Origin: Hymenobacter roseosalivarius DSM 11622
GTDB lineage: Bacteria; Bacteroidota; Bacteroidia; Cytophagales; Hymenobacteraceae
DNA length: 64,000 bases
Reading direction: 5' to 3'
Assembly (NCBI RefSeq): GCF_900176135.1
Contig: NZ_FWWW01000087.1
Coordinates: forward strand, 1 to 64,000
Shown: positions 8,985 to 32,177 of the stretch, in pieces
Position numbering within the stretch: position 1 is the stretch's first letter
How the letters are laid out: every line of letters begins with the position of its first letter
The notes under the pieces: generated by a model
The model's input: the letters and a program-made list of their open reading frames with translations, nothing else
What the model was told of the DNA's origin: nothing
Database searches by the model: none
Translations under genes and position numbers: made by a program

Positions 8985-10520
8985 TTACTTCAGCAGTAGG
9001 AATTTGCGCTGAATAACTTCCTGCACGGGCACATTTTCAATCTTGCTTTCGAGCCAGGAAATAATATCCAGATAGAGAAAGGGACGTCGCTCAAATGGAT
9101 TGGCCGCGATGCTGATGAGCTGGTCTTTGAGCTGTAAAAAAGCCCCCCGCAGCTGGTTGGGCGCTAAGTCGCCTAGGGTGCGTAGAAACTGGAAAATCGC
9201 GACTTGCATCTGCTGTTGCTCGTCCATCTTGCCCAGAAACCGATACACCGATTTGATTTGATACTCCAGCACTTCATCCCGGCCGGCATCGTAATGCGCA
9301 ATCAGGTTCAGGATGCGGGCAAAGCACTGAATATCCTCGCGCAGGCTGACGTCCTTCTGCTGAATAACCTTGTCGAGATACATAATGGCTTTGCCGTAGT
9401 CACCACTCCCAAAATACAGGCTGGCAATTTTGTAGTGAAACACCATTCGGCGGTGCGGGTCCAGCTGATAATGAAATCGGGTTAAGTTGTCGAGCAGGTC
9501 CGGGATGATAGTGAGGCCTTCCGTAAAGCGCCCCCGCATGAAGTAGGCATTGATCCGATTGGTGTAGTAGTACAAAAAGATCAGCATGTTGGTGTTCGGA
9601 CTCGCGCGCCGCTCGGGGTTCGCGGCAAATGCTTCCAACATTTTCAATACCTCACTGAACTTGCTGTAATACTGTAGATTAAAGAGCGAGATGAGCAGGT
9701 TGTGCAAGCCTTTGAGGTAGAGCATAGCTTGCTGCTCCTGCATGGCCGGATAGTGGAAAAACAGATCGACCCACTTCTGCGCGTAGCGGTAGCAAGCCCG
9801 AAAATTCTGCGTGATGGTGTGGTACCACACCTGAGACTGGTAGTAGTAAAGCTTCTCAAAAAAGCCCCCCGCCGTCAGGTCGACTCTCGCTACCGCGGTG
9901 TGAAAAAAAGCGCTGATATTTTCGTGATCCTGCTGGTTGCGGGAGTGGCCGATTTTGATGTACAGCCCGTACATGCGCAGCGCCAGGTTGGACAGCTCAT
10001 GCTCCTGGGTCAGGTGGGCTACCGTATCCAGCACCTCCGCTGATAGGCTCTCGGCCTTGTCGCGCAAGCTGCGCGTGATGTACTGGGCCTCAATAATTTT
10101 TTCGAAGTCGAGGGCCAGCAAAGCGATGTGGGGCATTTCGGCGTGGTGAGCGGCTACTTTCACCTTTTCCAGCATCTTAAGGCTCTGCTGGTACAGGCCG
10201 CGATTGTACAGCACCCTGGCGTAATCGAGCTGCTCGCGCAGCTGAATATCCAGGTTCTGGCCCATATGGTAGAGGCGCAGGCTGGCCAGCATTTGCTTGT
10301 ACAGGTTGGCTTTCAGGTTGGCCAGCTGCACTTTTTTGATGGCCGGTACTTCCGCCAGCACGCGCTCCTCGTCGTAGCGATCCAGCGCGTCGAATAGCTG
10401 TAGAAATTTCAATCCTTCATTGGAGCCTTGCCGGTTGGTGAATAGCCGAAAGTGCCGCTTTTCGGAGCGGGTTAAAGACTTAATTAACTGAAAAACCGGG
10501 TCAAGGCTTTCGTTAGGCAT
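8985..10520 (-). CDS. Conserved helical-repeat (TPR-like) protein of unknown function
   Basis: A 511-residue soluble protein, no signal peptide or membrane segment. It is almost entirely alpha-helical with repeated hydrophobic/Tyr patterns (for example YARVLYNRGLYQQSLKML and IASLYFGSGDYGKAIMYLDK), the latter a good TPR motif. The N terminus (LIKSLTRSEKRHFRLF) is typical of a Bacteroidetes-specific family of which I know no function. It is divergent from the ilv operon and its start is only about 50 nt upstream of the conserved ilv promoter module. Two GGGGGGCTTTTTT words in its coding strand (near 9140 and 9862) encode LRGAF and AGGFF. Confidence 0.7.
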   Translation of the reverse strand: MPNESLDPVFQLIKSLTRSEKRHFRLFTNRQGSNEGLKFLQLFDALDRYDEERVLAEVPAIKKVQLANLKANLYKQMLASLRLYHMGQNLDIQLREQLDYARVLYNRGLYQQSLKMLEKVKVAAHHAEMPHIALLALDFEKIIEAQYITRSLRDKAESLSAEVLDTVAHLTQEHELSNLALRMYGLYIKIGHSRNQQDHENISAFFHTAVARVDLTAGGFFEKLYYYQSQVWYHTITQNFRACYRYAQKWVDLFFHYPAMQEQQAMLYLKGLHNLLISLFNLQYYSKFSEVLKMLEAFAANPERRASPNTNMLIFLYYYTNRINAYFMRGRFTEGLTIIPDLLDNLTRFHYQLDPHRRMVFHYKIASLYFGSGDYGKAIMYLDKVIQQKDVSLREDIQCFARILNLIAHYDAGRDEVLEYQIKSVYRFLGKMDEQQQMQVAIFQFLRTLGDLAPNQLRGAFLQLKDQLISIAANPFERRPFLYLDIISWLESKIENVPVQEVIQRKFLLLK

Positions 10521-10642: not shown

Positions 10643-10847
10643 TGCAGCTTCCAGCAACAACGCGCCTGCTTTCAGTCGAGCTGCTACACTCAGCCAAAGC
10701 TCACGGTAGCAACGCAAGCTAAACAGAAAGTAGAACCTGCTTATTGCCTGCCCGCTGGTCGTCCTGACCGACAACCCAAACGAACCTACGTGCATAGTTG
10801 GGCCACACTTTCCCGCTCACATCATCAATACTGCCGCCTCAGCCGTC

Positions 10848-10904
10848 ATGCTTTTTACCGTTCTAGTCGTCATTCTGGTCATTATTCAGCTGCCGCCGGG
10901 CTGA
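10848..10904 (+). CDS. ilvL: ilv operon leader peptide, 18 aa, rich in Leu/Val/Ile
   Basis: ATG at 10848 opens an 18-codon frame ending in TGA at 10902-10904. It encodes MLFTVLVVILVIIQLPPG: four Leu, four Val and three Ile, 11 of 18 residues being the end products of the operon. It lies about 95 nt before ilvE and ends exactly at the 5' edge of an antiterminator arm (10905). This is the arrangement of classical ribosome-mediated attenuators such as ilvL/ilvB leaders of enterobacteria. The symbol is by analogy only; no homology to a named leader is claimed. Confidence 0.75.
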   Translation: MLFTVLVVILVIIQLPPG

Positions 10905-10966
10905 AGAAATTGCTTCTGTTTTTCAAGAACAAGCCTTTCTAAGCCCCGCGCTCAGAAAGGTTTTTT
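10905..10966 (+). promoter_or_regulatory. Transcription attenuator: mutually exclusive antiterminator and terminator
   Basis: Terminator: CCTTTCT (10934-10940) pairs with AGAAAGG (10954-10960), extended by AGC/GCT, followed by TTTTTT (10961-10966). Antiterminator: AGAAA (10905-10909) plus GCTT (10912-10915) pair with AAGC (10931-10934) plus TTTCT (10936-10940). The two use the same 10934-10940 strand. A ribosome stalled on the BCAA codons would leave 10905-10915 free and favour read-through. A ribosome at the leader stop codon would cover it and allow termination. Confidence 0.75.
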
Positions 10967-10999
10967 ACTGCTGACTACTTACTCAAATTCACCGCTTCT

Positions 11000-11911
11000 A
11001 TGTATTTCAAGGAAAACACCGTCGCGTTTGTAGATGGTGAGTTTGTTCAGGTCGATCAGGCTACGTGTAGCGTGTATGCGCAGTCGCTGCACTACGGGTA
11101 TGCCGTTTTTGAAGGCATTCGGGCTTACAATACGCCACAAGGCTCCCGGATTTTTAAGGCGCGTGAGCACTACGAACGGCTGGAGTACTCGTGCAATACC
11201 GTCGGGATGCCGCTACCGTATTCGGTGGAGGAGCTGATTCAGATCAGCTACCAGCTACTGGAGAAAAACGGCCTTTCTGACGCTTACATCCGGCCGCTGG
11301 TATACGCCGGCACGCCCAATATGAGCCTGAAATGCCCGAGCAGCAGCAACCTGCTGCTGGCCGTGTGGGAGTGGGGCAAATACCTCGGCGACCAAAGCCT
11401 GCGCCTGACCATTTCGCCCTACGAGCGACCCAACCCCAGAGCAGTGCCCATTGAGGCTAAAATATCCGGGCACTACGTCAACTCCATCATTGCCAGCACC
11501 GAAGCAAAAGGTCGGGGCTACGACGAAGCCTTGCTGCTGGATATGAACGGCTACGTGGCTGAGGGGCCGGGGGCCAATTTTTTCTTCGAGAAGAACGGGG
11601 AGCTGTTTACCGCTCCGGCCGGCAGCATTCTGCGCGGCATCACCCGCAACACCATCATCGATTTAGCTCGGGAAGCTGGCATCACGGTGCACGAAAAATT
11701 CTTCACGCCCGCCGCTTTGCAGGGCGCTACCGGCGCCTTTATGACGGGCACTGCCGCCGAGGTTATTGGCGTGTCTTCCGTGAATGATGTCGTGTTCGAG
11801 AAGCCCTTTCAAGACACCATTGGAGCCCAGCTTGCGCGCCGTTACCAGGATTTGGTAACGGGTCAGGTAGGGGCGCGTCGCACGCGCCCGCTCGTTGAAC
11901 GTCCCGCCTGA
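11000..11911 (+). CDS. ilvE: Branched-chain amino acid aminotransferase
   Basis: Class IV PLP aminotransferase for the last step of Leu, Ile and Val synthesis (2-oxo acid plus glutamate). The 303-residue product has the family N terminus (FVDGEFVQVDQATCSVYAQS, LHYGYAVFEGIRAY), the Lys region IEAKISGHYVNSI, and EGPGANFFFEKNG and LRGITRNTII near the cofactor. First gene behind the attenuator. The normal C terminus appears to run to about YQDLVTGQ. The last 14 residues (VGARRTRPLVERPA) are encoded by one arm of an inverted repeat (11867-11889) and look like a repeat-derived extension. Confidence 0.93.
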   Translation: MYFKENTVAFVDGEFVQVDQATCSVYAQSLHYGYAVFEGIRAYNTPQGSRIFKAREHYERLEYSCNTVGMPLPYSVEELIQISYQLLEKNGLSDAYIRPLVYAGTPNMSLKCPSSSNLLLAVWEWGKYLGDQSLRLTISPYERPNPRAVPIEAKISGHYVNSIIASTEAKGRGYDEALLLDMNGYVAEGPGANFFFEKNGELFTAPAGSILRGITRNTIIDLAREAGITVHEKFFTPAALQGATGAFMTGTAAEVIGVSSVNDVVFEKPFQDTIGAQLARRYQDLVTGQVGARRTRPLVERPA

Positions 11912-11971: not shown

Positions 11972-13645
11972 ATGGCCCTGAACCCTTACAGCCGCATTTA
12001 CACCCAGGACGACAGCTTGCCAGCCTCGCAAGCTATGCTGATTGGCTCCGGCCTGTCGGAGGCCGATTTGCGCAAGCCGTTTGTGGGTATTTGCTCCACC
12101 GGCTTCGATGGCAACACCTGCAACATGCACCTGAATGGGCTGGCCGATCAGGTGAAGGAAGGAGTGGGCGCGCACGGCATGGTGGGCCTGCGCTTCAATA
12201 CCATTGGCGTGAGTGATGGCATTACCAATGGCACGCCGGGCATGCGTTATTCCTTGGTTTCGAGGGAGATAATTGCCGATTCCATTGAAGCCATGGCCGC
12301 CGCGCACAACTACGATGCGCTGGCCTGCGTGGTAGGCTGCGACAAAAATATGCCCGGCTCTCTCATGGCGATGGCGCGCCTGAATCGACCTTCGCTCATG
12401 GTGTATGGCGGCACCATCAAGGGGGGCAATTTTAAAGGGCAGCAGCTCAATATCGTCTCCTGTTTTGAGGCTTATGGGAAAAAGCTGCAAAACGCCATTT
12501 CCGACGAAGATTACCGGGGCATTATAAACCACGCTTGCCCAGGACCGGGCGCGTGCGGGGGCATGTATACGGCCAATACGATGGCCTTGGCGGCGGAAGT
12601 ACTGGGCATGTCGGTGCCGTATTCTTCGTCGGCGCCGGCCGTGAGTGCTGCGAAGCGGGAGGAATGTCTGCACACGGGGGAGTACCTGCTGCGCCTGCTG
12701 GAAAAGGACATTAAGCCGCGGGATATTCTGGTGCGCGAGGCTTTTGAAAATGCTATGGTGCTCATCACCGCGCTGGGGGGCTCTACCAACGCCGTTATTC
12801 ACCTCATCGCCATTGCCGACGCGGCGGGTGTGAAGCTGACGTTGCGAGATTTTCAGCAAGTCAGCAACCGGGTGCCCATGCTGGCCGACCTCAAGCCCAG
12901 CGGTAAGTACCTGATGGAAGACCTCTCGGCGTTGGGAGGCATTCCTGCCGTGCTGAAAACCCTGCTCAACGAGAAGCTGCTGACCGGCGACCTGCTGACC
13001 GTAACGGGCAAAACTCTAGCGGAGAATCTGGCTGGCGTAGCTGCATTGGGGGAGGAGCAGGATTTGCTGCGGCCGTTTTCAAATCCCATCAAAGCCGACG
13101 GTTACATTCAGATTCTGTACGGAAACCTGGCCCCGGAAGGAGCCGTGGCTAAAATCACCGGCAAGGAAGGGACAAAGTTCGTGGGCCCGGCCAGCGTATT
13201 TGATTCGGAAGAGGAGTTGAACGAAGGGCTGATCCAAGGGAAAGTCGAGGCCGGTCAGGTAGTGATTATCCGCTACGTAGGGCCGAAAGGCGGACCCGGT
13301 ATGCCCGAGATGCTCAAGCCGACCTCGGCCATCATCGGGGCTGGCCTAGGCGACAAAGTAGCGTTGGTAACCGACGGCCGCTTTTCGGGCGGCACGCACG
13401 GCTTCGTTATCGGTCATGTGTGCCCGGAGGCGTACGACGGCGGCCCCATCGCGCTGGTTCGCAACGGCGACCAGGTGGTGCTGGATGCCGCCAACAATAC
13501 GATCAGTGTGCTGGTGGAAGAAGACGAAATGACGGTCCGCCGGGCCCAATGGACTCCCCCGGCCGAAAAAACCCCCCGGGGCGTGCTGCGCAAGTATATC
13601 CGCACCGTGGGCTCCGCCAGTGAGGGGTGCATCACCGATTCATAA
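11972..13645 (+). CDS. ilvD: Dihydroxy-acid dehydratase
   Basis: Fe-S dehydratase converting 2,3-dihydroxy acids to 2-oxo acids in Val and Ile synthesis. 557 residues, normal for the family. Cluster-binding and active-site motifs are present: [33 protein letters not shown], and the C-terminal GGPGMPEML and [12 protein letters not shown]. The ATG at 11972 follows directly on a repeat arm. Its stop (13643-13645) is 8 nt before the ilvB ATG, so translation is probably coupled. Confidence 0.96.
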
Positions 13646-13653
13646 GCAAGACT

Positions 13654-15390
13654 ATGTTCACGAAGGAAGAACCCATCCGACTTCTGCAGGAAAAAGCCCC
13701 CCAGACCATGTCGGGAGCCGAAATGACGTTGCGGGCCCTGCTGGCGGAAAGCGTAGACACGGTTTTTGGCTATCCGGGCGGGGCCATTATTCCCATCTAC
13801 GACGCGCTTTTTGACTTTAAAGAGCAGCTGAACCATGTGTTGGTGCGCCACGAGCAGGGCGGAATTCACGCTGCCCAGGGCTATGCCCGCGCTTCTGGCA
13901 AAGCAGGGGTAGTGTTTGCCACCAGCGGGCCCGGTGCTACCAATCTTGTTACGGGTCTGGCCGATGCGCTTATCGACAGCACGCCATTGGTGTGTATCAC
14001 CGGTCAGGTGTTCGCGCATTTGCTGGGTACTGATGCCTTCCAGGAAACCGATATTATCAACATTACGACCCCCGTTACCAAGTGGAATTATCAGGTTACG
14101 GAGGCCAGTCAACTACCGGAGGCGCTGGCCAAAGCCTTCTACATAGCCCGCAGCGGCCGGCCCGGCCCGGTGTTGATTGACATCACCAAAAACGCGCAGC
14201 AGCAGAAGTTTGGCTTTTCGGAGTACACACCTTGCACCCACATTCGTAGCTACCGGCCCGCGCCCATTGTGCGCCCGGAGTATGTGGCCCGGGCGGCAGC
14301 GCTAATCAACCAGGCCAAGCGGCCCTTCGTGCTCTGGGGCCAGGGAATAATATTGGGAGCAGCCGAGCAGGAATTCCTCGCTTTTATCGAGAAAAGTGGT
14401 ATTCCGGCCGCCTGGGCAATTCTGGGTGCTGGTGCTCTGCCTACTGGCCACCCACTAAACGTGGGGATGCTTGGCATGCACGGCAACTATGGTCCCAACA
14501 TGCTGACCAACGAGTGCGACGTGCTCATTGCCATCGGTATGCGCTTCGACGACCGGGTAACCGGCCGCCTCGACAAATACGCCAGGCAGGCCCAGGTAAT
14601 CCACCTCGACATCGACCCCACGGAGATTGACAAAAATGTGGCTACCACCGTGCCTGTGTGGGGTGATTGTAAGGAAACCTTACCCTTACTCACGGAGTTG
14701 ATTGAGGCGAAAAATCATCCGGCATGGCGGCAGCGGTTCGAGCAGTTTCAGACCGAAGAAGTTGCCGCCGTTATTCAGGACGAGCTTTTCCCGACGTCGG
14801 ATGAGCTGACCATGGGCGAAGTTATTCAGCAGCTAAACGAGCTGACCCTAGGCGAGGCCATTGTGGTAACCGATGTGGGCCAGCACCAGATGGTAGCCTG
14901 CCGCTACGCCAAGTTCAACCACTCGCGCAGCAACATCACCAGCGGCGGGCTGGGCACGATGGGTTTTGCCTTGCCGGCGGCCATTGGAGCCAGGTTTGGC
15001 CGCCCGGATCGCACGGTGGTCGCCATCATTGGCGACGGAGGTATTCAGATGACGATTCAGGAGCTGGGAACCATTATGCAGACCGGAGTTGACGTCAAAA
15101 TCATCATTCTCAACAACCAGTTTCTGGGTATGGTGCGGCAGTGGCAGGAGCTGTTCAACGACCGGCGCTACTCCTTCGTGAACATCGCCAGCCCCGACTA
15201 CGTGACGGTGGCCAGTGGCTACAGCATTAGCGGCAAACGCGTTTTGGAGCGCCGTGAGTTGAAAAGTAGCCTCCAGGAAATACTGAACCACGCGGGTTCT
15301 TTTCTGCTGGAAGTGATGGTGACCAAGGAGAACAACATCTTCCCGATGGTCCCGCAAGGCTGCAGCGTCAGCGAAATCCGGCTGCGGTAA
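13654..15390 (+). CDS. ilvB: Acetolactate synthase, large (catalytic) subunit
   Basis: ThDP enzyme making acetolactate or acetohydroxybutyrate, the first common step of Val/Leu and Ile synthesis. 578 residues from the ATG at 13654. Motifs: FGYPGGAIIPIYD, the catalytic Glu in RHEQGGIHAAQGYA, and the ThDP-Mg motif starting GDGGIQM and ending ILNN. An in-frame GTG lies 9 codons upstream inside ilvD, but the ATG is preferred. The 26-residue pre-sequence contains KAPQ encoded by an AAAAAGCCCCCCAG word at 13691, in a segment outside the conserved fold. Confidence 0.96.
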   Translation: MFTKEEPIRLLQEKAPQTMSGAEMTLRALLAESVDTVFGYPGGAIIPIYDALFDFKEQLNHVLVRHEQGGIHAAQGYARASGKAGVVFATSGPGATNLVTGLADALIDSTPLVCITGQVFAHLLGTDAFQETDIINITTPVTKWNYQVTEASQLPEALAKAFYIARSGRPGPVLIDITKNAQQQKFGFSEYTPCTHIRSYRPAPIVRPEYVARAAALINQAKRPFVLWGQGIILGAAEQEFLAFIEKSGIPAAWAILGAGALPTGHPLNVGMLGMHGNYGPNMLTNECDVLIAIGMRFDDRVTGRLDKYARQAQVIHLDIDPTEIDKNVATTVPVWGDCKETLPLLTELIEAKNHPAWRQRFEQFQTEEVAAVIQDELFPTSDELTMGEVIQQLNELTLGEAIVVTDVGQHQMVACRYAKFNHSRSNITSGGLGTMGFALPAAIGARFGRPDRTVVAIIGDGGIQMTIQELGTIMQTGVDVKIIILNNQFLGMVRQWQELFNDRRYSFVNIASPDYVTVASGYSISGKRVLERRELKSSLQEILNHAGSFLLEVMVTKENNIFPMVPQGCSVSEIRLR

Positions 15391-15476
15391 GCGCGGTACT
15401 GCGACAACAAACAGAACCTGTCATACAGAGGCGGGGCCGATGCATGACGTTCGATAATAGAGAAAAAATAAAAATC

Positions 15477-16082
15477 ATGAGTGAGCAACCCATCGACAGC
15501 CAGGAATACAACATCACGGCTTACACCGAGAATCAGATTGGCTTGCTCAACCGCATTGCCATCATCTTCTCGCGCCGCAAAATCAACATTGAAAGTCTGA
15601 ACACCTCGCCTTCTGAAATTGATGGAATTCACCGCTTTAACATCGTGATTCACGAAACGGAAGACGTGGTGCGCAAGATTGCTAAGCAGATTGAAAAGCA
15701 GGTGGAAGTGCTCAAAGTGAACTACAACACCAATCAGGAAGTAATCTGGCAGGAAATGGCGCTCTACAAAGTGCCCACCGATATCATAGCCGAAAAAGCC
15801 TCTGTGGAGCGCCTGCTGCGCGAATATGGTGCTCGTGCCGTCGTGATTCGCCGGGACTACACGGTATTCGAAACCACGGGCCACCGCGAAGAAACCGACA
15901 ATCTGATCGAAGTGCTGCAGCCCTACGGCCTGATTGAGTTTGTGCGCAGCGCCCGCATCGCCATCATCAAACACAGCGACGGCTTTAACCGCAAGCTGCG
16001 CGAGTTTGAGCGCACCGAGCCGGGCTCAGAAGTCATTGAGAACGAATTTCTCAACAGCCGCGATAAAGTCTTTACGATGTGA
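15477..16082 (+). CDS. ilvN: Acetolactate synthase, small (regulatory) subunit
   Basis: Regulatory partner of IlvB that confers valine feedback inhibition. About 201 residues, with an N-terminal ACT domain (YTENQIGLLNRIAIIFSRRKINIESL) and the ALS small-subunit C-terminal domain (RDYTVFETTGHREETDNLI, VRSARIAI). I favour the ATG at 15477, which follows an A-rich stretch. An in-frame ATG at 15444 would add 11 residues. The gap from ilvB is about 85 nt, and a repeat-filled spacer follows before ilvC. Confidence 0.92.
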   Translation: MSEQPIDSQEYNITAYTENQIGLLNRIAIIFSRRKINIESLNTSPSEIDGIHRFNIVIHETEDVVRKIAKQIEKQVEVLKVNYNTNQEVIWQEMALYKVPTDIIAEKASVERLLREYGARAVVIRRDYTVFETTGHREETDNLIEVLQPYGLIEFVRSARIAIIKHSDGFNRKLREFERTEPGSEVIENEFLNSRDKVFTM

Positions 16083-16310: not shown

Positions 16311-17082
16311 ATGGCAACCATCAATTTTGGCGGCGTAGACGAAACCGTAATTACCCGCGACGAATATCCGCTGTTCAAGGCGCAGGCCTATTTGAAGGAC
16401 GAAGTAATTGCCGTGATTGGGTACGGAGTACAGGGCCCCGGCCAAGCGCTAAACCTGCGCGACAATGGCTTCAACGTCATCATCGGGCAGCGCCAGAACT
16501 CGCCTTCTTGGGAGAAGGCCTTGCAGGATGGTTGGGTGGAGGGCGAAACGCTGTTTTCCATTGAGGAAGCGGCGGAGCGCGGCACCATCATCGCCAACCT
16601 GCTGTCGGATGCCGGCCAGATTGCGCTGTGGCCCACGCTGAAAGCCCGGCTCACGCCCGGCAAAACGCTCTACTTCTCGCACGGCTTCGGCATCACCTTC
16701 AACGACCAAACCAACATCATCCCACCCGCCCTCGGAGGCCTTCAATGAAACCGTGGAAGAGCTGACTCAGAGCCTGGTGCCGCTGGTGAGTGAAAACGGC
16801 ATGGACTGGATGTTCAGCAACTGCTCCGTGACGGCCCAGCGCGGGGCCCTCGACTGGAAAGGCCGCTTCCGCGAAGCTACCTTGCCCGTGCTCAATGAAC
16901 TCTACGACAGCGTGGCCTCGGGCAAAGAAGCAGAGCGAACCATTCAGCGCGGCTCGACGCCTAATTATCGCCAGGAGTTAGAAGTGGAATTGAAGGAAGT
17001 CCGCGAGTCGGAGCTGTGGCAGACCGGTGCGACCGTGCGCCAGCTTCGCTCCCTTAAAAAGACCCAGGAAGCTGATGCATAG
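16311..17082 (+). pseudogene. ilvC: Ketol-acid reductoisomerase, internally deleted and frameshifted
   Basis: Codes for the NADPH-dependent isomeroreductase of Val/Ile synthesis, but is broken. 16311 onward gives a normal N-terminal half with the NADP-binding GYGVQGPGQAL, ending at NIIPP. Immediately after, at about 16726, the sequence jumps one frame over into the C-terminal part (PSEAFNETVEELTQ, from about 16728) and continues to the stop at 17082. Comparison with the family as I know it indicates loss of about 97 codons, including the DLTGERG region with Mg-binding acidic residues. The first frame stops at 16748. Neither piece can be a working enzyme. Both flanks are otherwise well conserved, so the lesion is recent or an artefact. 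Confidence 0.85.
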
Positions 17083-18349
17083 CGAAACGATAGCCCCTTC
17101 AGCCCCGGCGGTGCTGCTGAAAAACGTGGAACAAGCCGCCCGCAACCTGCATGGCGTGATCTACGAAACGCTGTTGCAGCAGAATCTGGGCTTGTCGGCC
17201 GCCTACGACGCCACCATTTACCTCAAGCGGGAAGACTTGTAGGTGGTGCGCTCCTACAAGATTCGGGGCGCCTACAACAAAATTTCCATGCTAACGAGGG
17301 AGCAGGGCGCGCAAGATGTAGTGTGTGCCAGCGCCGGCAACCACGCCCAGGGCGTGGCCTACGCGTGCCAGCTGCTGGGACTGAAGGGCTATATTTTTAT
17401 GCCGGCCAATACGCCGGCCCAGAAGGTGAGCAAGGTGCGCCTGTTCGGCAAGGATCAGGTGGAGGTAATCCTGACCGACAACACCTTCGACGACACGTTT
17501 ACGGCCGCCAAGCACTTCTGCGACGAGCGGGGCAGCACCTTCGTTCACCCCTTCGACGACATGGCTATTGTGGAAGGACAGGCCACTGTGGGCCTGGAAA
17601 TTCTGCAGGCGTCGCCCGTGCCTATTGATTACTACTTTATGCCCATAGGGGGTGGAGGGCTGGCCTCAGGTGTGGGGGGCATTTTTCGGCAGTTGAGTCC
17701 GCATACCAAGCTCATTGGGGTGCAGCCGCTGGGGGCGCCTTCCATGCAGCAAGCCATTCAGGCCGGGCGGCGGCAGGCCCTGGAGCATATCGAAAGCTTC
17801 GTAGATGGCGCTGCGGTGAAGTGCCCCGGCGCGCTGACCTTTGAGCTGTGCCGCGAGCTGCTCGACGAGGTGGTGCTGGTGCCGGAAGGGCAGGTGTGCG
17901 AAGACTTGCTCAAAATGTATAATGAAGAAGGTATTGTGCTGGAGCCGGCCGGCACGCTAAGCATCTCGGCCCTGCGCCAATACGCCGATGAAATCAAAGG
18001 AAAAACGGTCGTGTGTGTGCTCAGCGGCAGCAACAACGACATCACCCGGATGGAGGATATCAAGGAGCGCGCCACGCGCCACCAGGGCCTGAAGCACTAC
18101 TTTATGGTCACCTTCAGCCAGCGCCCAGGGGCGCTCCGGCGCTTCGTAAACAACGTGCTCCATCCCGACGATGACATCATTCATTTCCAGTACATCAAGA
18201 AAAACAACAAGGAAAAAGGCCCTGTTTTCGTGGGTATTGAAGTAAAAAAGCCCCACGAAATTGAGGGTATCCAGTTTCGGATGGAGGCGGAAGGCTTCGC
18301 CTACGAATACCTCAATGGTAAGCAGGATTTCTTGAGCCTGCTGGTATAG
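17072..18349 (+). pseudogene. ilvA: Threonine dehydratase (deaminase) with in-frame TAG
   Basis: PLP enzyme making 2-oxobutyrate from threonine for isoleucine synthesis. The ATG at 17072 overlaps the ilvC stop. The frame runs 56 codons to TAG at 17240-17242 and then continues in the same frame, without further lesion, to 18349. The stop falls inside the cofactor-lysine motif, REDL-stop-VVRSYKIRGAYNK, where family members have Gln, so one C-to-T change of CAG explains it. The remainder is intact: SAGNHAQGVAYA, PIGGGGLASG and a C-terminal ACT-like domain (FSQRPGALRRFVN). A restart at GTG 17243 would leave out the N-terminal segment. Confidence 0.85.
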
Positions 18350-18747: not shown

Positions 18748-19914
18748 ATGGCAGCTGAGAAAATTCAAATCTTCGATACCACCCTGCGCGATGGCGAGCA
18801 AGTGCCGGGCTGCAAGCTAAACCGCGATGAGAAACTGATTATTGCCGAACAGCTCGAACGGCTGGGCGTCGATGTTATCGAGGCCGGATTTCCCGTTTCC
18901 AGCCCCGGCGACTTTGAGGCGGTACAAGCTATTGCGGCCCAGACCCGCGAGGCGACCGTCTGTGGCCTGACGCGGGCCGTGGAGAACGACATTCGGGTGG
19001 CGGCTGAGGCGCTGAAGCCGGCGCGCTATCCGCGGATTCATACCGGCATCGGAACCTCCGAGTCGCATATTCAGCACAAGCTGTGCAGCACCCAGGATAA
19101 AGTGCTGGAGCGCGCGGTGGCCGCCGTAAGGCTGGCCAAATCATTTGTGGAAGACGTGGAGTTTTACGCCGAGGACGCCGGCCGCACGGAAAACGCCTAC
19201 CTGGCCCGCGTCTGTGAAGCGGCCATTAAGGCTGGAGCCACCGTCCTGAATATTCCCGACACCACCGGCTATTGTCTGCCCGACGAGTACGGTGCCAAGA
19301 TTAAGTATCTGCGTGAGAATGTGCGCGGTATTGAAAGCGTCTGTTTGTCAACGCATTGCCACAACGATCTGGGGCTGGCAACTGCTAATTCTATTGCGGG
19401 TGTGCTCAACGGCGCCCGGCAGATTGAGTGCACCATCAACGGGGTAGGTGAGCGGGCCGGCAATACGGCGCTGGAAGAAGTTGTCATGATTTTGCGCCAG
19501 CATCCATACCTGCAGCTCGATACCAGCATTATCTCCCAGCGGTTGGCCGACACCTCGGCCCTGGTTTCGGCGATGATGGGGATGCCGGTGCAGCCCAATA
19601 AGGCTATCGTGGGGGCCAATGCCTTTTCCCATTCCAGCGGCATTCACCAGGATGGCGTGATTAAGCACCGCGCAACCTACGAAATCATTGATCCGTGCGT
19701 AGTGGGCGTGGCTGATTCGTCTATCGTGCTTACGGCCCGCTCGGGACGGGCGGCGCTGGCGTATCGCCTGCAAAAGTTAGGCTATGAATTTGACCGCCCG
19801 GCGCTCAATAAGGCCTACGCCTCATTCATGCACCTGGCTGATCGTAAGAAAGAAGTTGTGGACAGCGACTTACACTTATTAGTGGAACAGGAAAACCTGG
19901 TTACGGCCAATTAA
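18748..19914 (+). CDS. leuA: 2-isopropylmalate synthase, short form
   Basis: First committed enzyme of leucine synthesis (acetyl-CoA plus 2-oxoisovalerate). The catalytic TIM barrel is complete: [15 protein letters not shown], the substrate region [18 protein letters not shown] and NGVGERAGN, and SGIHQDGV. At 388 residues it lacks most of the C-terminal LeuA regulatory domain found in enzymes of 500 or more residues. This short form is usual in Cytophaga-Flavobacteria to my knowledge, so feedback by leucine may need another protein. One nt separates it from leuC. Confidence 0.9.
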
Positions 19915-19915
19915 C

Positions 19916-21310
19916 ATGGGCAAAACGCTAGTTGATAAAATCTGGGATGCTCATGTGGTGAAAGCCGTGGGGGGCAATTTGGAAGTGTTTTACATCGACC
20001 GTCACCTGATTCATGAGGTGACCAGCCCCCAGGCCTTCGACGAGCTGGCCGCCCGTGGCCTCACTTTGTACAACCCCGCCCAGATAGTTGCCACCGCCGA
20101 CCACAACGTACCCACGCGTAATCAGCACTTGCCCATTCAGGACCCCCTTTCGCGCTCCCAAGTTGATAAATTGACCGAAAACTGCGCTAGGCACGGGGTG
20201 GAGTTGTTTGGCTTAGGGCATGAATACCAGGGTATTGTGCATGTCATCGGACCTGAGTTGGGCATTACCCAGCCCGGTATGACTATCGTGTGCGGCGATA
20301 GCCACACTTCCACTCATGGCGCTTTTGGTGCCATTGCTTTTGGTATCGGTACGAGCCAAGTGACGCAGGTAATGGCCTCACAATGCTTGCTGATTAGTCG
20401 GCCCAAGCGCATGCGCATCACCGTGGAGAGGCAATTGCGGCGGGGTGTCACGGCCAAAGACTTGATTCTGCATGTGATAGCCCAACTTGGTACGGGTGGG
20501 GCCACGGGCTACTTCGTGGAATACGCGGGCAGCGCTATTCGGGCCCTGAGCATGGAGGGCCGCATGACGGTGTGCAACATGAGCATCGAGATGGGGGCCC
20601 GCGGCGGCCTTATCGCGCCTGATGTCACCACGTTTAGTTATCTAAAAGGCCGCCCTTATGCACCACAGGGCGAGCAGTGGGAGCAGGCCGTGGCTTACTG
20701 GCAAACCCTTTTTTCCGACGCTGATGCCGCCTTCGATACCGAGCTGCACTTCGACGCGGGGGGCATTTCGCCCATGATTACCTATGGTACGAACCCCGGT
20801 ATGGGCATGGTATTGAATGGCAGTATTCCGTTGCAGGTGCTGGAGAGCGAGACAGTCAGCTTCAATAAGTCATTGCAATACATGGGGTTTGCGCCCGGCG
20901 AATCCTTATTGGGCAAGCAGATTAATTACGTGTTTATCGGCAGCTGTACTAACTCGCGCATCGAGGATTTACGCGCCGTGGCGGCCTACGTGAAGGGTAA
21001 GCACAAGGCCGCGCATGTGGAGGCCATCATCGTTCCGGGCTCCAAACAGGTAGAAAAGCAGGCCATTGCCGAAGGCTTGGACCAGGTGTTGACGGCCGCC
21101 GGCTTCGAGTTGCGTGAGCCTGGTTGCAGCGCCTGTCTGGCCATGAACGATGACAAGATTCCGGCCGGCGCTTACTGCGTTTCCACCTCCAACCGCAACT
21201 TCGAAGGACGCCAAGGCCCTGGCGCCCGCACCCTGCTGGCTAGTCCGCTAGTGGCGGCTATTACCGCCGTGGAGGGCCGCATCGTGGACATTACCAAGTA
21301 CTTAAACTAG
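19916..21310 (+). CDS. leuC: 3-isopropylmalate dehydratase, large subunit
   Basis: Aconitase-family isomerase of leucine synthesis, 464 residues. It holds the 4Fe-4S cluster with Cys in [13 protein letters not shown] and in [10 protein letters not shown], plus [14 protein letters not shown] and the N-terminal [13 protein letters not shown]. Acts with LeuD, encoded 9 nt downstream. Confidence 0.95.
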
Positions 21311-21319
21311 GCTGCGCTC

Positions 21320-21916
21320 ATGGAAAAGTTTCAAACGCTCCGCTCAACGGCCGTGCCGCTGCCCATCGAAAATATCGATACGGACCAGATTATTCCCGCC
21401 CGTTTTCTGAAGGCGACTACCCGCGAAGGTTTCGGCGCTAATCTGTTCAGCGACTGGCGCTACACGGCTGATGGTCAGCCTAAGGAGAGCTTCGTGCTGA
21501 ACGATGCGCGCTATGGGGGAAAAATTCTGCTGGGGGGCAAAAACTTTGGCTGCGGCTCCAGCCGCGAGCACGCCGCCTGGGCGCTCTATGACGCTGGTTT
21601 CAAGGTTGTCATTTCCAGCTACTTCGCTGATATTTTTCGCGGCAATGCTTTGAATACCGGATTGTTGCCCCTGCAAGTGTCGGATGAAATTCTGCAACGG
21701 CTTTTCGCGCAGGTAGAGCTGGACCCGCAGACGCAGCTGGTGGTTGACCTGCCCACGCAGACGCTGACGGTGCCCGTCTGGGAAGAAAGTATCGGCTTCG
21801 ACTTAGACCCTTACAAAAAAGAATGCCTCATCAATGGGTACGACGACATTGATTTTCTCTTAAACCAAAAAGCGGCTATTGCCGCCTACGAACAGCAGCG
21901 ACCATGGGCATATTAA
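21320..21916 (+). CDS. leuD: 3-isopropylmalate dehydratase, small subunit
   Basis: Swivel-domain subunit that completes the LeuC active site. 198 residues with [14 protein letters not shown] and the substrate-binding [18 protein letters not shown]. Its 3' end overlaps the leuB start by 13 nt, so the two are translationally coupled. Confidence 0.95.
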
Positions 21917-23025
21917 GAAAGCGAGTTGTAGTACTGGGTGGCGATGGTATCGGCCCGGAAGTGTGTCAGGAGGGCGTGCGGGTGCTGAAAGCCGTGGCCG
22001 AGCGCTTTGGCCACGAATTCATTTTCGACCACCAGCTCATGGGCGCGTGCGCCATTGACGCTACCGGCGACCCGCTGCCCGAAAAAACCCTGGCTGCCTG
22101 TTGGCAGGCCGATGCAGTCCTGCTTGGGGCCATTGGCGACCCGAAGTACGACAACAACCCCGCCGCCAAAGTGCGGCCTGAGCAAGGCCTGTTGAAGCTG
22201 CGCAAGTCGCTGGGGCTCTACGCCAATATTCGGCCCGTCACGGCCTACGACCGGCTGCTGGAGCATTCGCCCCTCAAGAAAGACCGCATCCAGGGCGTCG
22301 ATATGCTCATTTTTCGGGAGCTGACGGGGGGCATTTATTTTGGCGAAAAAGGCCGTACCGGAGACGGAGCTGCTTTTGATCAGTGCACTTATACTCGGGA
22401 GGAAATTGCCCGCGTTGCCCACCGCGCTTTTCACGCCGCCGAAAACCGCCGCCAGAAGCTGACACTGGTGGATAAAGCCAACGTGCTGGAAACGTCGCGC
22501 TTGTGGCGCGAAGTAGTGCAGGAAATTGCCCCCCAATACCCCGGTGTGGTCGTCGATTACCTGTTCGTGGACAACGCCGCCATGCAGCTTATCCTCAACC
22601 CACGGCAGTTTGATGTGCTGTTGACGGAGAATATGTTCGGCGACATCCTCTCCGACGAAGCCTCCGTAATTGCCGGTTCGCTGGGCTTATTGCCCTCCGC
22701 TTCCGTCGGCGACCAGATTGCTCTGTTTGAGCCAATTCACGGCTCTTTCCCACAAGCCAAAGGCAAAGGCATCGCCAACCCCATTGCCACCATCTTATCC
22801 GCTGCTATGTTGCTGGAGCACTTTGGCTTACAAGCCGAAGCGGACTGCGTGAAAGAAGCCGTAGATAATGCCCTGGAAAGGGGAGTGCTCACGCCTGAAC
22901 TGACTTCCGGCGTGCCGTACACCACCGAGCAAGTAGGTAGCTTCATTGCCTATGGCGTCCTGGATTTGCAGGATTGCCAGCTGCACCGAAGCAATATTGA
23001 GGTTGGGTTGAGTACGATTATTTAA
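21904..23025 (+). CDS. leuB: 3-isopropylmalate dehydrogenase
   Basis: NAD-dependent decarboxylating dehydrogenase of leucine synthesis, 373 residues. Family motifs: [37 protein letters not shown] and the metal-binding [12 protein letters not shown]. Last gene of the leu cluster. A large inverted repeat starts 8 nt after the stop and separates it from the convergent glt genes. Confidence 0.95.
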
Positions 23026-32105: not shown

Positions 32106-32177
32106 TAGTCCGTAGGGGAATCGAACCCCTGTTGGTAGAATGAAAATCTACTGTCCTAACCCCTAGACGAACGGACC
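32106..32177 (-). tRNA. tRNA-Glu (anticodon TTC)
   Basis: Cloverleaf on the minus strand: acceptor GGTCCGT with ACGGACT, D arm around CTAGGGGTTAGGAC, anticodon stem GTAGA / TCTAC with loop TTTTCAT (anticodon TTC), and T arm AGGGGTTCGATTCCCCT. No encoded CCA. It stands alone between icd and gap, both at some distance. Confidence 0.93.

Follow-up and report, generated by a model that had tools for sequence, protein, structure and literature searches.

A putative ribosome-mediated attenuator ahead of the ilv-leu gene run of Hymenobacter roseosalivarius, with serial units in Pontibacter-type relatives

Introduction

Is the synthesis of branched-chain amino acids (BCAAs) controlled by ribosome-mediated attenuation in Bacteroidota, and does the short Leu-, Val- and Ile-rich frame ahead of ilvE in Hymenobacter roseosalivarius DSM 11622 belong to such a switch? 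The question arises from a first-pass annotation of the window, i.e., the whole 64,000-nucleotide stretch of contig NZ_FWWW01000087.1 analyzed here, in which positions 10848–10966 were read from the sequence as a complete leader-peptide attenuator. We examined the parts of this element in the window, in relatives of the same family and across the class, and weighed attenuation against other explanations.

Leader peptide and terminator in the window

The 18-codon frame with 11 Leu/Val/Ile codons that had been annotated as ending at 10904 was confirmed by reading the open reading frame (ORF) at 10848–10904 (Table 1). The stop codon (10902–10904) is followed by 26 nt and then by the hairpin at 10931–10960. 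In the hairpin, 10934–10940 is complementary to 10954–10960, and pairing of AGC (10942–10944) with GCT (10950–10952) extends the stem. Together with the T run at 10961–10966, this agrees with the annotated terminator with six T. The folding energy of 10928–10968 was -14.8 kcal/mol (z -5.35), a value equalled by 0 of 200 shuffles. A mechanical terminator scan listed the hairpin on the minus strand only and not on the plus strand, where, we think, it may run the stem on into the T run; the same scan found terminators in the region no more often than in shuffles (3 vs. a mean of 3.5). The hairpin was also considered as the terminator of the upstream gene (8985–10520), and this was ruled out because that gene lies on the opposite strand.

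When the window was searched for an ORF with at least 45% Leu/Ile/Val and at least seven such codons followed by a terminator, the element at 10848–10966 was the only place found in 64 kb, and no place was found in six block-shuffled windows (384 kb). A laxer criterion (35%, six codons) gave two places in the window vs. one across the shuffled windows. The sole match to Rfam in the window at the gathering score was a tRNA at 32106–32177. A known Rfam RNA at the element itself was rejected, as a search of 10700–11020 returned no family match, its only hits having E values of at least 3.5.

A block upstream of the leader (10766–10803) could be aligned by eye in 11 of 19 Hymenobacter-type sequences, approximately 45–80 nt 5' of the leader ATG, and may contain the promoter. 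Comparison of this block with promoter consensus revealed no recognizable match, and a simple promoter scan listed nothing within approximately 260 nt of the leader.

Table 1. Features of the putative attenuator and of the genes 3' of it (window coordinates).
Feature	Position	Strand	Basis
Conserved upstream block, possible promoter region	10766..10803	+	by-eye alignment
Leader peptide ORF, MLFTVLVVILVIIQLPPG and stop	10848..10904	+	11/18 codons Leu/Val/Ile; corresponding leaders in relatives
Antiterminator 5' strand (strand 2): last leader codons, stop and 11 nt beyond	10894..10915	+	duplex prediction, swap test, covariation
Paired blocks of strand 2	10894-10896, 10898-10902, 10905-10909, 10912-10915	+	duplex prediction
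Strand 3, common to antiterminator and terminator	10931..10950	+	folding, duplex prediction, covariation
Intrinsic terminator hairpin	10931..10960	+	z -5.35 for 10928-10968; covariation
T6 run directly 3' of the hairpin	10961..10966	+	read from sequence
ilvE, branched-chain amino acid transaminase	11000..11911	+	PRK06606 and TIGR01122 above cut-off
ilvD, dihydroxy-acid dehydratase	11972..13645	+	profile match
ilvB, acetolactate synthase large subunit	13627..15390	+	profile match
ilvN, acetolactate synthase small subunit	15444..16082	+	TIGR00119 above cut-off
ilvC, broken: ~293 bp internal deletion, frameshift	16311..17082	+	comparison with relatives
ilvA, interrupted by in-frame TAG at 17240-17242	17075..18349	+	comparison with relatives
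leuA, leuC, leuD, leuB; presumed co-transcription	18748..23025	+	~400 nt after ilvA

The gene run and its damaged genes

The annotated placement before ilvE stands, and the target appears to be wider than ilvE alone: ten genes follow the element in the order ilvE, ilvD, ilvB, ilvN, ilvC, ilvA, leuA, leuC, leuD, and leuB. We infer that this ilv-leu run, with gaps of approximately 230 nt upstream of ilvC and 400 nt upstream of leuA, is co-transcribed.

Two of the ten genes are damaged in this strain. Compared with its counterpart in relative L229, ilvC is out of frame and lacks approximately 293 bp; 8 bp are shared at the deletion junction. A search of the window's genome found no second ilvC above cut-off, and ilvC was found above cut-off over nearly the whole model in 11 of 11 close relatives searched. 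Additionally, ilvA carries an in-frame stop at a position where the frame is open in the four relatives aligned. This damage could reflect either a decaying operon or assembly errors. If the former, the element of this strain may be a relic regulating no working pathway, an explanation compatible with attenuation in relatives. We regard this as unlikely, though the broken ilvC and ilvA speak for it; against it, all three parts of the element (leader, antiterminator, and terminator) are intact, the leu reading frames are open, and assembly errors are possible in a draft of 122 contigs.

An antiterminator that begins inside the leader

The first-pass annotation drew the antiterminator as 10905–10915 pairing with 10931–10940. 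This pairing is present, in that AGAAA (10905–10909) is complementary to 10936–10940 and GCTT (10912–10915) to 10931–10934. It forms, however, the inner part of a longer duplex between 10894–10915 and 10931–10950, so that the arm starts not at 10905 but at approximately 10894, inside the leader. The segment 10903–10945, which spans the antiterminator as first drawn, did not exceed its shuffles in stability (z -0.20). The extended duplex reached -20.8 kcal/mol, a value that none of 300 shuffled versions of the 5' strand attained. It is mutually exclusive with the terminator, of which it uses the 5' arm. Because strand 2 starts inside the leader, it would lie under a ribosome positioned at the stop codon.

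The specificity of this pairing was examined by swapping strands among 35 sequences of relatives. Their own pairs averaged -20.2 kcal/mol, which 0 of 20,000 re-dealings reached; within the 23 sequences outside genus g3 (which holds Pontibacter species), the observed value was reached by 61 of 20,000 re-dealings.

Equilibrium folding of 35 sequences with assumed ribosome footprints, which is thermodynamic and not kinetic, was used to follow the competition of the strands. When a ribosome was placed on the stop codon and its footprint removed, the terminator had a probability of 1.00 in 35 of 35. With the ribosome at codon -8 and strand 4 not yet made, the antiterminator core had a mean probability of 0.79. 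Without a ribosome, the outcome differed between species, with means of 0.31 for the antiterminator and 0.60 for the terminator. The strand 2 core paired with the leader in the prefix at a mean probability of 0.66, a control-free figure with no conserved partner identified, and a conserved 1:2 protector hairpin was not demonstrated among the 35 sequences folded.

Conservation in the same family

An IlvE search of 150 family genomes, including the window's own, gave 48 matches at 1e-60, and all 48 upstream regions were read. The first-pass annotation had staked its claim on conservation of the small frame, its BCAA codons and the stems in relatives, and this was found: a BCAA leader plus terminator is kept in 37 of the 48 loci. 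The leader and terminator are of the window type in 35 loci, including L027, which is shortened by a premature stop, and the degenerate L046, and two loci (L050 and L051) have second-type leaders only. No recognizable leader was found in the remaining 11 (L012, L016, L018, L019, L022, L025, L026, L029, L033, L034, and L037), four of which (L012, L025, L034, and L037) keep a terminator-like hairpin. L012 and L025 look as if the switch were under dismantling, with the terminator staying and the leader ORF lost or unrecognizable.

Leu, Ile, and Val make up 52% of the residues of 49 distinct leader peptides (start Met excluded) vs. 24% of operon codons. One of these residues occupies position -8 from the stop in all 49 peptides and position -7 in 92%. 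Codon choice also differs, as the leaders outside g3 use ATT for Ile at 0.89 and GTC for Val at 0.73, vs. 0.55 and 0.14 in the operon genes of the window. The C-terminal residues of the leaders vary (PPG, PLG, LAG, AGA, WGC, and others) together with the RNA pairing, and the Leu/Ile/Val content upstream of them is kept.

R1, a covariance model for window-type elements, was run on 204 family genomes. Matches with E values of 1e-9 or lower were obtained in 89 (counted from the listing) and matches at 0.01 or lower in 190; the weak ones are probably common terminators. Twenty R1 places were fetched, of which 18 were the best matches of middling-score genomes chosen by the analyst and two were second matches. 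Among the 18, the first long ORF 3' of the element was ilvD in 15, as recognized from its N-terminus. Since the element stands before ilvD where ilvE does not head the operon, it stays with the operon rather than with ilvE. The ORF downstream was unclear in one genome (L126), where the match was weak and the attenuator unconvincing. The second or weak matches L130 and L131 were rejected as attenuators on reading. In two of the 18 (L121 and L129), a methyltransferase-like ORF comes first after the attenuator, where ilvE or ilvD would be expected.

Covariation in both stems

Covariation was analyzed in 40 sequences from outside g3 (38 distinct), comprising 23 of the 35 and 17 of 18 further loci; L079, in which the script detected no leader, was omitted from alignment A3. 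In the seven-pair antiterminator core, 83.7% of cells were paired and 13 cells were changed on both sides, and 0 of 500 shuffles were as high on either count. The covariation score of the core was 0.152 vs. 0.096 in shuffles (0 of 500). In the terminator, 98.7% of cells were paired and 10 were changed on both sides, again with 0 of 500 shuffles on either. The number of pairs with two-sided change and the number of further pair types did not exceed shuffles in the antiterminator (145 and 456 of 500) or the terminator (109 and 108 of 500). Compensatory changes are therefore present in both stems, as the first-pass annotation would predict, and because the sequences are related and the cell counts are not independent events, these numbers are supportive and are not probabilities.

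Distribution outside the family

A blind scan was performed upstream of ilvD at 91 places outside the family, 64 in the same order and 27 elsewhere in the class; three of the fetched stretches were shortened by contig ends (L134, L156, and L218), and the ilvD places of the window's family and of G315 and G316 (contig ends) were not fetched. Leader-plus-terminator units before ilvE or ilvD were found on the sense strand in 33 of 91 places vs. one of 91 on the reverse strand, and the scan found no unit in the other 58. Some of the 33 are doubtful, e.g., L213 and L216, with weak predicted antiterminators (-4.3 and -4.5 kcal/mol).

The second sample consisted of the 80 genome records with the closest IlvE. 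A unit was present within 600 nt upstream in 46 of 80 records vs. two of 80 on the reverse strand, where the control was run without that limit. The 46 comprise 23 of the first 35 records (Hymenobacter, Pontibacter, and Cesiribacter), many of which duplicate genomes of the family sample, and 23 of the other 45, including Pedobacter, Chryseobacterium, Kordia, Fulvivirga, and Fluviicola.

A second model, R2, gave nine matches outside the family with E values below 1e-4 (L086–L094). Six have a BCAA-rich leader and an IlvE-like ORF downstream, and three (L088, L089, and L091) lack this combination. None of the weaker R2 matches that were read (L095–L111, of which L097 and L100 fall within the family) was convincing as a BCAA unit ahead of ilv genes.

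A further leader-like ORF was observed at hisG. An ORF with at least four His codons ends 168–240 nt before the hisG match in 15 of 15 loci of the window's own genus (L240–L254, the own genome being L245) and in none of three loci scanned in other families. Eleven of the 15 end like HHSSF, YHSSF, or HHSS, and a terminator was detected after only three. From a scan of the sense strand alone, this ORF is a probable his attenuator leader. Genome G173, which like G183 belongs to the same genus as the window's genome, has its hisG match in two overlapping pieces (L255 and L256), as if frameshifted, and both lie outside the His-leader scan.

Two units in series

The less ordinary observation is that two BCAA units stand in series in most Pontibacter-type relatives examined and in some other Bacteroidota. 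The window has a single unit, and no R2 match was found in its own genome (G000) or in L001. Among the g3 loci with ilvE first, 13 of 15 carry a pair of BCAA leaders, each followed by a separate terminator. Eleven of these combine an upstream-type with a window-type unit (L035, L036, L038–L045, and L047), and two have two upstream-type units (L050 and L051); of the remaining loci, L046 has one degenerate unit and L033 has none. When ilvD comes first, two units were found in three of six g3 loci examined (L117–L119) and one in L083, L084, and L128.

Two genomes of another family also have two units (L165 and L167), and the antiterminator of the first unit is weak in both (-6.8 kcal/mol). Re-examination of 12 further genome records gave two units in 11 (L285–L289, L295, L304, L316, L319, L321, and L331), with L285–L288 being Pontibacter species already counted among the g3 loci, and one unit in L313. 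The antiterminator of the first unit of L304 is weak (z -1.0). At these 12 loci, the hairpin of the most downstream unit begins 23–29 nt past the leader stop.

In the g3 upstream type, strand 2 lies within the last codons and the stop of the leader. Covariation of its antiterminator was uninformative, as 97.6% of cells were paired without two-sided changes and shuffles were equal; in its terminator, two-sided changes occur at one pair, in four sequences.

We consider it reasonably probable that BCAA attenuation is general and probably old across Bacteroidota and that a serial arrangement of two attenuators is used in several lineages (Pontibacter, Cesiribacter, Fluviicola, Cyclobacteriaceae, and others). 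If so, the polymerase would have to clear two independent ribosome checks on its way, and the response would be steeper or amino acid–specific. The serial units uncovered here make this combined response measurable.

Proposed mechanism and alternatives

These results suggest, with a probability of roughly 0.9, that the element governs the ilv-leu operon by classical ribosome-mediated transcription attenuation, with charged Leu, Val, and Ile tRNAs as the signal sensed. This interpretation, already offered in the first-pass annotation, is supported by the finding that the leader, both stems and the operon context are conserved in different genera. When BCAA-tRNAs are scarce, the ribosome would stall on the Leu/Val/Ile codons of the leader, and its front edge would leave 10894–10915 free to pair with 10931–10950. 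This pairing would block the terminator, and RNA polymerase would read into ilvE and the later genes. When BCAA-tRNAs are plentiful, the ribosome would reach the stop codon and cover strand 2, and 10931–10960 would fold as the terminator, presumably ending transcripts near 10966.

Two explanations dispense with a sensing ribosome on the leader. A 5' UTR terminator could be controlled by a protein or a small molecule, with the ORF incidental, and loci L012 and L025 are what such control would allow. We consider it very unlikely, as the element matches no Rfam family, the leader and antiterminator overlap and co-vary, and differently worded BCAA leaders recur in other families. The small ORF could instead encode a functional hydrophobic membrane microprotein, the hairpin being a separate feature. 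The peptide is indeed very hydrophobic, and the 35 window-type leaders are alike in length (14–23 residues). However, the order and choice of Leu, Ile, and Val vary while their content stays high, the C-terminal residues follow the RNA pairing, and covariation links the 3' end of the ORF to the terminator arm, which makes a microprotein highly improbable. A chance meeting of a hydrophobic frame and a hairpin, favored by nothing beyond the short length of the parts, was rejected as having a negligible probability on the conservation, the strand swap, the shuffled windows, both covariation tests and the counts on sense vs. reverse strands.

Attenuation thus remains our preferred reading, and it provides a precise and testable model for Bacteroidota, a phylum for which the literature searched mentions such attenuation of amino acid operons only as a suggestion. 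The covariance models supplied here can be used for annotating the BCAA attenuator.

Comparison with known systems

The mechanism is classical, and the window element is a new instance of it. Attenuators of ilvGMEDA, ilvBN, and leu are listed for Escherichia coli and Salmonella typhimurium in an earlier report (PMC1183508). As in those systems, a leader with codons for the end products would control termination before a biosynthetic operon. The element differs in its lineage and in that the Hymenobacter strand 2 takes in the last codons and the stop of the leader without a demonstrated conserved strand 1. The ilvB-II or ilvBNC attenuator of Corynebacterium and the ilvB-OMG motif likewise have a BCAA-rich upstream ORF before ilv genes (PMC10272879, PMC11857589). 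The former belongs to Corynebacterium and the latter is said to occur in various phyla (PMC10272879, in excerpt); the window element has no Rfam match. Bacteroid-trp RNA (RF01692) is a predicted cis-regulatory RNA of Bacteroidetes tied to trp by name (PMC2864571, Table 1), and it has no match in the window.

The first-pass annotation held such control to be little documented experimentally in Bacteroidota, which needs qualification, as excerpts of one report already give strong clues for leader-peptide attenuation upstream of amino acid biosynthesis operons of Flavobacterium psychrophilum (PMC9723704). That case concerns the same phylum and the same kind of mechanism, and the operons are not named in the excerpted text. 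Leader-like sORFs are also mentioned for Bacteroides thetaiotaomicron (PMC7366714). The mechanism in Bacteroidota is therefore not a new idea. Among the literature matches listed for attenuators of Hymenobacter or Bacteroidota, the window element was not described, and an earlier prediction is possible; likewise, no serial BCAA attenuators were described among the matches listed, which were judged largely from titles and the beginnings of abstracts.

As to serial units, the paper with tandem attenuators in its title among the literature matches listed concerns the Salmonella mgtCBR leader, which it calls unusual for harboring two (PMC3641672, in excerpt). Two leader ORFs in series occur there as in the Pontibacter-type relatives, the window itself having one unit. 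According to the same excerpt, mgtCBR responds to ATP and proline, and its stems are unlike intrinsic terminators (PMC3641672). In contrast, both leaders of the Pontibacter-type pairs are rich in BCAA codons, and their terminators are of the intrinsic type.
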